Source: Fimbriimonas sp.
GTDB lineage: Bacteria; Armatimonadota; Fimbriimonadia; Fimbriimonadales; Fimbriimonadaceae
Reading direction: 5' to 3'
NCBI GenBank assembly: GCA_029866005.1
Contig: JARXAE010000018.1
Location: 1 to 64,000, forward strand
Length of the DNA: 64,000 nucleotides
Position numbers and translations under genes: made by a program. Positions 11,947 through 15,176 of this stretch are shown here, piece by piece. Numbering within the stretch: the first letter of the stretch is position 1; the number at the start of each line of letters is the position of its first letter. The notes beneath the pieces are model-generated. The model saw only the letters and a program-made list of their open reading frames with translations. It was not told the DNA's origin and made no database searches.

Positions 11947-12008
11947 AAGCCCTCGCCCGTCTCAGGAGGCGCTTCGCTTACACCTGATCCACCCTCCCTT
12001 CAGGGAGG
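11947..12008 (+). repeat. Palindrome-containing spacer repeat
   Basis: CCCTCGCCCGTCTC, an arm with GCGCTTCGCTTACACC, and then the perfect palindrome CCCTCCCTTCAGGGAGGG followed by ACTTGGG. The layout (CCCTCxCCC, about 30 bases, then a CCCTC-type palindrome and CTT) is the same as in the repeat to the right of the DUF559 gene at 15113-15176, with a different palindrome core. Confidence 0.6.
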
Positions 12009-12039
12009 GACTTGGGCTGGTGGGAAGTTGGGTGCGGGG

Positions 12040-12639
12040 CTACTTGCGTATCCGTTCGATTACTTGACGCCAAACGCCCTGCCCTAGAGTGCCGAGGAGG
12101 TGGATTGGGTTGACGGGTTCGCGGACGCCTTCGATTGGGCCGTAGGTGATCGTGCGCTCGTTCGGATTGAGACGATACAGTTGAACGCCGGAGGGGGCCA
12201 AGGATAGCTCGCCGACGACATCGCCAGTGTCTGAATCGAAGTTGGGATTGTGCACCCAATCGATGGAATTCGTCTTTAGCGAACCTTCCCAGATACTGCC
12301 TTGGAGCACCCAGCTGAATCTGCCATACCTGCTGTAGACGAGCACTCCGAGCGGGGTTTCGAGGACTTCTTGCTGAACATGGTCAATAATCAAACTGTCG
12401 TTTTGCCTTAGGATAACGACTTCCCCTCGACGAAGAGCCGCCCAGTAGGAGCCGTCCTCGCAGTGCTTTGCTTCGACGATTAGATCTTCGTGATCCAATC
12501 CGACTAAGGCGTGGTCAGTTCCGTCTTCGGATTCCCAGATGCATGCTCGGTCGCCACGGGGTTCACGGAGACGGAACACTTGGTCACAATCGTTGATTGC
12601 GACGTGGTTGCCTTGGACGTTTTCGGAGCCGGGGTACAT
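12040..12639 (-). CDS. Unknown protein, paralogue of the gene at 13333
   Basis: A soluble 199-residue protein without signal or membrane segment and of no family I recognise. Taking the ATG at 12639 aligns its N-terminus with its paralogue at 13333-13848. Shared in order are SEN-x3-NHV, a RL-x2-P-x-GDRAC-x-W block, DG-x2-H-x2-VG-x2-HED, TPLG-x3-YS, and W-x-L-x-G-x-IW-x-G. The C-terminal third differs from the paralogue and is longer. It lies 35 bases downstream of the second toxin gene on the same strand and may be carried on that transcript. Confidence 0.6.
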   Translation of the reverse strand: MYPGSENVQGNHVAINDCDQVFRLREPRGDRACIWESEDGTDHALVGLDHEDLIVEAKHCEDGSYWAALRRGEVVILRQNDSLIIDHVQQEVLETPLGVLVYSRYGRFSWVLQGSIWEGSLKTNSIDWVHNPNFDSDTGDVVGELSLAPSGVQLYRLNPNERTITYGPIEGVREPVNPIHLLGTLGQGVWRQVIERIRK

Positions 12640-12674
12640 AAAAGCTTGCGAGATTGACTGGTCGACCGCGCAAT

Positions 12675-12974
12675 CTAGTCTTGAATATACAAGAAGTACT
12701 GCATTGCGGTGTGAAGGATGCGAACGACGTAAATGCTGTCCTCCGTTACCTCGTACACAATTCGGTGCCCCGCTTTGGCTCCGGGCCACTTCGCAATGTA
12801 ACTTTGGCGGCCTGGTCGTTCTGCGATGCGCCTACCGATGCCAGGCATGGAGGCGACTAGTTCCATTTCGGAGACCAGGAACTGGATGTATCGGTCGGCT
12901 TGGGTTATACCGAAGTCGGCGGTAGTGGTCGTGTGGATCCCGGATAAATCGAGGTCAGCCCACGTGCTGAGCAC
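12675..12974 (-). CDS. RelE/ParE-family toxin, second pair
   Basis: A 99-residue toxin-like protein. Family marks are a helix with ADRYIQFLVSEMELVASMPG, IGRRIAERPGRQSYI, GHRIVYEVTEDSIYVVRILH and a short hydrophobic end. The GTG at 12974 is the only usable start: a TGA in frame stands a few codons upstream. It starts 2 bases after the stop of the antitoxin-like gene. It is related in layout, but not closely in sequence, to the toxin at 4831. Confidence 0.75.
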   Translation of the reverse strand: MLSTWADLDLSGIHTTTTADFGITQADRYIQFLVSEMELVASMPGIGRRIAERPGRQSYIAKWPGAKAGHRIVYEVTEDSIYVVRILHTAMQYFLYIQD

Positions 12975-13332: not shown

Positions 13333-13848
13333 CTACCTCTGCCGTTCTAGGATTCGAATTTGCCTTGCGAATGGGTCAATCTCTACTTCTCGCCAGTTTG
13401 TGTAGTCATTGATCACCTCGATTCCAGCTTCCGCAACTCTTTTTTCGGGATCGTAATCTCGAACGAAAAAGTCAACCCCGTCCAACTCGCCGGACCAAAT
13501 CTCACCCGCGAGCATCCAGTGGAATGTCGCAGAGTAGCTACTGTAAAAGATCGGACCAAGAGGCGTTGGCAAATTTCCCCAAAAGTGATTATCGAGTCGA
13601 ATTGCCGTGTTGCCCTTGAGCAATATCGTAGGTCCGTTTATGAGTTCAAGAGTGCCACCCCAAGGCTCGGCCTCATTGGCCTGCGATAAGATGTCCTCAT
13701 GCTGCATTCCGACGATGCCATGATAGTGACCGTCTGCGGCGATCCAGAGACATGCCCGATCTCCAACCGGATTTTTCAGTCGGTACGTGACAGTGCAGTG
13801 TCGTAGATCGACGTGGTTCTCGGGCAGATTCTCTGACCAGACTTGCAT
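13333..13848 (-). CDS. Unknown protein, paralogue of the gene at 12040
   Basis: A 171-residue cytoplasmic protein starting MQVWSENLPENHVDLRHC. It shares the GDRACLW, HGIVGMQHED, PTPLGPIFYSS and HWMLAGEIWSGEL blocks with the gene at 12040, so the two are diverged copies. No known family is recognised. The ATG is 4 bases after the stop of the methyltransferase gene, so it is probably translated from the same message. The paralogues are separated by a toxin-antitoxin pair. Confidence 0.62.
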   Translation of the reverse strand: MQVWSENLPENHVDLRHCTVTYRLKNPVGDRACLWIAADGHYHGIVGMQHEDILSQANEAEPWGGTLELINGPTILLKGNTAIRLDNHFWGNLPTPLGPIFYSSYSATFHWMLAGEIWSGELDGVDFFVRDYDPEKRVAEAGIEVINDYTNWREVEIDPFARQIRILERQR

Positions 13849-14668: not shown

Positions 14669-14717
14669 AAGTCCCCTCTCCCATCTATTTGATGGGAGAG
14701 GGGGTTGGGGGTGAGGG
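14669..14717 (-). repeat. Left inverted repeat beside the DUF559 gene
   Basis: Read on the minus strand this is CCCTCACCCCC, a short arm, then CCCTCTCCCATC-AAATA-GATGGGAGAGGGG and ACTT. The right-hand copy at 15113-15176 reads the same on the plus strand, so the gene sits between inverted copies, each with an internal hairpin. Confidence 0.75.
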
Positions 14718-14755
14718 AAATAGGAGCCCAACGAAAGCGACCAATTCGAACGAAA

Positions 14756-15106
14756 ATGCAAGTTGATCGGGCACGGAAAGCGCGTCAGGAGGCATCTGTG
14801 GCAGAGGAGATTGTCTGGCGACTACTTAGGGGTCATAAGGAGGGATTCAAGTTTCGGCGAGAGCATCCGATCGGCTCCTATCGTCTTGACTTTTACTGCG
14901 CCGAGGTGAAAGTTTGCATTGAGCTTGATGGTGAGCAACACGATCCTGTTCGAGACGAAATTCGGGATAACTACCTTGCGCGGCTGGGAATCGTCACCTA
15001 TCGAATTCCGAATGTCGAGTTTTTTCAGCTCGATCCGAATGCACCTTATCAGGATCATATCCTGGAGGCACTGAAACTGTGTGAGAGTCGTCGGCGAGAG
15101 CGGTAG
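14756..15106 (+). CDS. DUF559 (Vsr-like) endonuclease-domain protein
   Basis: A 116-residue protein that is almost all DUF559 domain: AEEIVWRLLRGHKEGFKFRR, HPIGSYRLDFYC, VKVCIELDGEQH and a final strand GIVTYRIPNVEFF. These are the family's Glu, Asp and Glu/Gln-His nuclease positions, and the fold is related to very-short-patch repair endonucleases. The ATG at 14756 suits the family length; an upstream TTG (14705) lies inside the repeat. DUF559 genes are often found singly in spacer regions. Here inverted palindromic repeats lie about 40 bases before and 6 bases after it. Confidence 0.82.
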   Translation: MQVDRARKARQEASVAEEIVWRLLRGHKEGFKFRREHPIGSYRLDFYCAEVKVCIELDGEQHDPVRDEIRDNYLARLGIVTYRIPNVEFFQLDPNAPYQDHILEALKLCESRRRER

Positions 15107-15112
15107 ACTGCT

Positions 15113-15176
15113 CCCTCACCCCCGGTTCGCTACGCTCACCGGCCCCTCTCCCATCGAATAGATGGGAGAGGGGCTT
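15113..15176 (+). repeat. Right inverted repeat beside the DUF559 gene
   Basis: CCCTCACCCCC, an arm with an imperfect hairpin (CCGGTTCGC...TCACCGG), then CCCTCTCCCATC-GAATA-GATGGGAGAGGGG and CTT. Its strong hairpin may also end transcripts from the DUF559 gene and, from the other side, the ccm operon, whose last stop codon is 7 bases away. Confidence 0.75.

Follow-up and report, generated by a model that had tools for sequence, protein, structure and literature searches.

A DUF559 nuclease gene between inverted BoxC-type triplex units as a probable short mobile element in Fimbriimonas sp.

The window analysed here is a stretch of 64,000 nucleotides from a Fimbriimonas sp. genome (contig JARXAE010000018.1), in which a small DUF559 gene lies between two palindromic units. 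Direct reading of the sequence places the left unit at 14673-14717 and the right unit, in opposite orientation, at 15113-15173. The features of the locus, together with a further unit upstream, are as follows.

14673-14703, minus strand: left hairpin, CCCCTCTCCCATC-TATTT-GATGGGAGAGGGG, with a 13-bp stem and a 5-nt loop
14704-14717, minus strand: left third block, G-TT-GGGGG-TGAGGG, almost a mirror image of the purine arm (triplex type)
14756-15106, plus strand: gene for a predicted DUF559 nuclease, 116 aa from the ATG at 14756, stop codon at 15104-15106
15113-15123, plus strand: right third block, CCCTCACCCCC
15124-15142, plus strand: mini-hairpin insert, GGTTCGCTACGCTCACCGG, separating the right third block from the right hairpin
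15143-15173, plus strand: right hairpin, CCCCTCTCCCATC-GAATA-GATGGGAGAGGGG, with the stem core of the left hairpin in opposite orientation
11948-12016, plus strand: degenerate solo unit without a nuclease gene, recognised by eye

A first-pass annotation of this DNA had described two hairpin copies in opposite orientation around a DUF559 gene, which direct reading confirmed, the gene being intact, and had placed them 39 and 6 nt from the coding frame, distances that are off by at most one base. The element is an intergenic copy; its reading frame is open from a TTG at 14705, and both this codon and a GTG at 14711 fall within the left unit. The sequence of the window units has no GTAG at the hairpin foot, and no T-run is present at the window hairpins. 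The related layout previously noted at 11947-12008 proved to be a degenerate solo unit built on the same three-block plan as the other two: CCCTCGCCC, an insert with CGCTTCGCTTAC, and CCCTCCC-TTC-AGGGAGGG. Elsewhere in the window, two minus-strand frames (12040-12789 and 13333-13848) are paralogue-like, sharing the pattern GDRACxW...HEDxxxxA with no Pfam match, and between them sits a ParE-type toxin gene (12675-12974) with a possible antitoxin frame adjoining.

The window protein matches Pfam DUF559 (PF04480) with 78 bits against a cut-off of 20.6 (E 6e-22), and all the family-invariant residues (E, D-F, E-x-D-G and H) are present; no transposase family in Pfam matched the gene. The nearest folds to its AF2 model (pLDDT 89) in Foldseek (3hrl, 3r3p, 1vsr) are NGO0050 of N. 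gonorrhoeae and then, among nucleases, the homing endonuclease I-Bth0305I and Vsr. As modelled, the protein is a predicted nuclease of Vsr/PD-(D/E)XK fold, like YcjD and NGO0050, in agreement with the single-domain, Vsr-like gene first proposed. Between the source genome (G000) and G001 the gene has a dN/dS of 0.11, indicating purifying selection and thus a function that has been kept.

Judged by their sequence, the units are repeats of the BoxC/PIT/TM intrastrand-triplex type. Across families with different arms, the third block mirrors the purine arm (mirror exceeding direct, 66 versus 11 flanks), and this relation exceeds that of swapped pairs with z of about 10 in a covariation analysis of 190 flanks; the arm GGAGAAGGGG, for example, occurs with the third block GGGGATGAGG, and the arm AGGAGGAAGGGGG with GGGGGATGGAGG. 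Rfam returned only sub-threshold matches of the hairpins to Antizyme_FSE, which were taken as chance and the identity rejected.

Since the 1990s, BoxC-type repeats have been a known class with no known means of spreading. Holder et al. 2015 (PMC4666352) reported over 260 genomes with the BoxC/PIT/TM repeat, a G/C-rich intrastrand triplex motif of which E. coli K-12 has 23 copies; in E. coli the motif is intergenic and TM sites are prone to rearrangement. The E. coli unit forms a triplex in vitro, whilst footprinting in vivo gave no support for a stable triplex (PMC4666352). The same study found no mobility-providing activities near the repeats and makes no mention of DUF559; nor did we find any DUF559-repeat link in the titles, abstracts and a few passages of the open-access papers that mention DUF559. 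E. coli itself has a DUF559 gene, ycjD, with sapF and fabI as its neighbours, and a full BoxC unit, CCCTCGCCCCTCTGGGGAGAGGGTTAGGGTGAGGGG, lies between ycjD and fabI. The sapF-fabI interval was rejected as an empty site, because strains without ycjD carry eefRABCD there and no empty gap.

In the source genome, which comprises 38 contigs and 2.81 Mb in total, exact copies of the 12-mer hairpin core CCCTCTCCCATC are confined to the window locus. This search alone suggested a single-copy hairpin, a view overturned by looser patterns: the generic hairpin recurs at two more sites, on contigs C15 and C33, and the strict three-block unit has 6 copies, against none for the control pattern. Single-copy hairpins, which the first-pass annotation had held out as a sign against mobility, are therefore true of the exact core and untrue of the repeat class, which is multi-copy. 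Copies both with and without an adjacent DUF559 gene, which it had proposed to count, were found. A second DUF559 gene, located at C34:49909-50262, likewise stands between matched units, whose core differs from that of the window element; comparison with G001 and G018 gave no clean empty site for this second element or for the secA-side unit.

We surveyed 151 genomes for the association of gene and repeat. The strict three-block unit is present in 62 of them and its reversed pattern, run on the same genomes as a control, in none, whilst a protein query found relatives of the window protein in 85. For the 103 DUF559 loci of the phylum with both flanks, upstream and downstream flanks were compared by local alignment, with the downstream flank reverse-complemented (inverted test) or unreversed (direct test). 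A score of at least 20 was reached by 59% of loci in the inverted and 33% in the direct test, as compared to 2.4% of random cross-locus pairs (2-6% for this control overall); ParE toxin genes from the same genomes, also serving as a control, gave 0/27 inverted and 1/27 direct. By hand count, the flanks match in one way or the other, at a score of at least 16, in about 77% of the 103 loci. The remaining 23% or so are without matched flanks by score, some still showing units by eye, so that homologues lacking the repeats, anticipated as a contrary finding, amount to about a quarter by score. A motif test for pyrimidine-arm hairpins accompanied by a third block, applied up to 350 nt to either side, was positive for 54% of the loci in the phylum and for 80% of the named ones, whereas ParE loci gave 0% and far pieces taken from the same loci 1.5%.

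The named loci, 80 from a scan of genome contigs, span Pseudomonadota, Bacteroidota, Omnitrophota, Rokubacteria, Elusimicrobia and others, and 72% have matched flanks, against 14-20% across loci. DUF559 loci in a plasmid collection (Neisseria, Azospirillum, Sinorhizobium, Sphingomonas, Synechocystis and Deinococcus) show unit-like hairpins by eye; phage records contained no relative. Flanks that match within a locus and differ between loci behave like the ends of an element, although local duplication or gene conversion could explain part of the pairing. Genome by genome, DUF559 and the units co-occur with an odds ratio of 3.2 (10.6 within the own family, p 5e-5). Nuclease identity is also correlated with flank-unit similarity (Mantel test with permutation, 105 loci): rho is 0.28 between genera, 0.38 within genus and 0.53 for same-genome paralogues (p 0.001 each), a correlation that is supportive, not proof, of recognition, since shared ancestry of the elements contributes. 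Taken together, the pairing of DUF559 with BoxC/triplex repeats is widespread, and the window layout is one instance of it, with good evidence of element behaviour.

Comparison of sister genomes, as originally suggested, revealed empty sites. The window element occupies its site in G000 and G001, whereas the site is empty in G018, G002, G003 and G009; the G018 flanks of the site have 91-93% DNA identity and place the right boundary, the only side on which it was placed, at most about 8 nt from the end of the right hairpin. None of the four empty sites carries a unit, which favours insertion of the element as a whole. At the left side of the G018 empty site lies an unrelated inverted-repeat insert (C1:1511591-1511729, L268; ends GGAGTGCGGAAACTTGTT and AACAAGTTTCCGCACTCC), so this spot accepts more than one kind of small insert.

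Dispersal is seen elsewhere as well. The L027/L028 element occurs in 2 of the 8 species of its genus, its unit being dispersed in 4 of the 8. Units with the core of the nuclease's own flanks give 15-68 blast hits per genome in G076, G083, G081 and G082 and dozens in G037 and G061, counts in which one unit may appear twice, and the single closed contig of G008 holds 56 strict units sharing the core of the nuclease flanks, together with three DUF559 genes. Strict units are also abundant, at 49-113 each, in four genomes (G089, G095, G103 and G108) without DUF559 by the Pfam model, of which G089 is complete and carries 113; the nuclease may thus be dispensable for keeping units, or have been lost after their amplification, or other drivers may exist. 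An apparent gene inversion between L018 and L019 was discarded as an artefact of unoriented loci.

Both units and whole elements occur in frame inside host genes. The sialidase gene of G018 carries a solo unit that adds 13 aa and is absent at that place in G000, and another solo unit lies in a variable linker of alaS in the same genome. Whole DUF559 elements are found in frame in valS (a Rickettsiales bacterium), priA (two Alphaproteobacteria), lhr (Mucilaginibacter) and genes for DUF1156 methyltransferases, the linkers around the in-frame DUF559 being translated units (PSPxxGEG). For valS, lhr and priA, host Pfam domains lie on both sides of DUF559 in a single frame, and homologues of the genes with an in-frame element have no unit at that place. 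The units are without stop codons in most frames, so insertions in genes can be tolerated. The AlaRS linker before RRIIADHIR (alaS, genus g1, L306-L320) is itself a hotspot of different in-frame inserts by species, such as APPLEGRWREGF in G003 and SPTPLLPEEEG in G002.

We propose, with a probability of roughly 60%, that the window locus is a short mobile element consisting of a DUF559 nuclease gene with two BoxC/PIT/TM units as its ends, whose product would recognise and cut its own units and leave the copying to the host. The nuclease would recognise its own family of units, probably as a hairpin or third-strand structure exposed as single-stranded DNA at the replication fork, and would cut at the unit, most likely on the structured single strand. 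Host repair or replication would then copy the element to a new place, and a solo unit could be copied likewise as a non-autonomous passenger. Gene and repeats are associated across bacteria and appear at new places, even in frame in essential genes, and the enzyme is therefore likely to be a driver of BoxC/triplex repeat spread; that it mobilises its flanking palindromes, as first suggested, is what we also infer. Against a mobile element stand the unit-rich genomes that have no DUF559 by the Pfam model, the loci whose flanks do not match by score, and the fact that the nuclease is alone, without a strand-transfer domain.

The main rival is homing into earlier units, in which solo BoxC units spread otherwise, DUF559 cuts them, and the gene is bracketed by units because it was copied into them by recombination between units. 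Its Vsr-like/EDxHD fold, common to I-Bth0305I, suits such a course, as do the unit-rich genomes without the gene and the numerous loci whose compound units form direct and not inverted repeats. However, the empty sites of the window element carry no unit, although an extinct intermediate is conceivable, and genes that contain a whole element in frame have homologues free of units at that place; we consider homing unlikely. Less probable still is that triplex units are replication or repair hotspots that cause breaks, with DUF559 a repair nuclease retained nearby by chance and dispersal left to ordinary recombination. In its favour, the nuclease is Vsr-like and E. coli TM sites tend to rearrange (PMC4666352), but this account is at odds with the within-locus matching of flanks and the co-variation of nuclease and unit, and units do not accumulate at ParE genes in these genomes. 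Chance flanking of an ordinary gene by bidirectional terminators or generic palindromes is very improbable: a hairpin at each gene end would resemble terminators and the E. coli motif is intergenic (Holder et al., PMC4666352), but the reversed-pattern, cross-locus and ParE controls contradict it, units lie inside reading frames, and a terminator role was rejected given the missing T-run and the lack of terminator activity in earlier work, as cited in PMC4666352.

The mobile-element reading is best framed as a selfish element akin to a REPtron, in which a Vsr-type nuclease takes the place of the RAYT, cleavage and transposition being its conjectural part. As in REPtrons (REP with RAYT/TnpA-REP), small dispersed palindromic repeats bracket one or few enzyme genes, and enzyme and repeat co-vary. 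The likeness to REP/RAYT first drawn for this locus holds in that repeats occur with and without the gene, flanks match within a locus and sister genomes have empty sites; it fails in that this is not a REPtron, whose enzyme is an HUH tyrosine transposase and whose repeats carry a GTAG tag, whereas here a PD-(D/E)XK Vsr-type nuclease is predicted and the three-block triplex units have none. In-frame insertion, unlike in REPtrons, recurs in DUF559 elements. The repeats of Holder et al. 2015 (PMC4666352) share the three-block purine/pyrimidine unit, the wide bacterial spread and the inverted pairs, but had no mobility-linked gene, whereas the units here bracket a nuclease gene and occur inside genes. 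Rickettsia palindromic elements (RPEs; PMC10969869) are likewise palindromic and in frame in unrelated genes, but measure about 150 bp and have no known enzyme, whereas some DUF559-element insertions carry a whole nuclease domain; such RPE-like insertion was seen in relatives, the window copy being intergenic. EDxHD/Vsr-like homing endonucleases such as I-Bth0305I appear, from the model, to share the catalytic fold within a selfish gene, but the DUF559 gene is carried between repeats, without intron, intein or long DNA-binding region. MITEs and IS also have inverted ends and non-autonomous copies that outnumber the gene-bearing one, but DUF559 elements have no DDE transposase and no confirmed target-site duplication.

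On a broader scale, the odds seem even that this is a new class of bacterial mobile element in many phyla, in which a stand-alone Vsr-type nuclease spreads both itself and large numbers of triplex-forming BoxC units, with in-frame insertion into essential genes among the outcomes, and is thereby the missing source of BoxC/PIT/TM repeats. The link gives both DUF559, a domain of unknown function, and the BoxC repeats a testable role, ycjD of E. coli K-12 included, as one of several laboratory strains. If true, a nuclease-only repeat-mobilising system would join the RAYTs, and the in-frame insertions show a route by which a folded domain can enter essential proteins.

Further arrangements of the units were seen in individual genomes. 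Contigs C1, C4, C5, C12 and C17 of G116 hold inside-out unit pairs about 105 nt apart with the third blocks outward, as well as closed palindromes in which one hairpin has a third block on both sides. Unit arrays with a regular spacing of about 107-110 nt occur at G037:C1:1421993-1422455 and G061:C1:2731193-2731572. In G037, an IS-like stretch of about 733 bp, present in about 10 near-identical copies (C1:380790, 1421264, 2794946, 2796307 and others; L383-L395), repeatedly adjoins BoxC-type units, as if using them as insertion sites.
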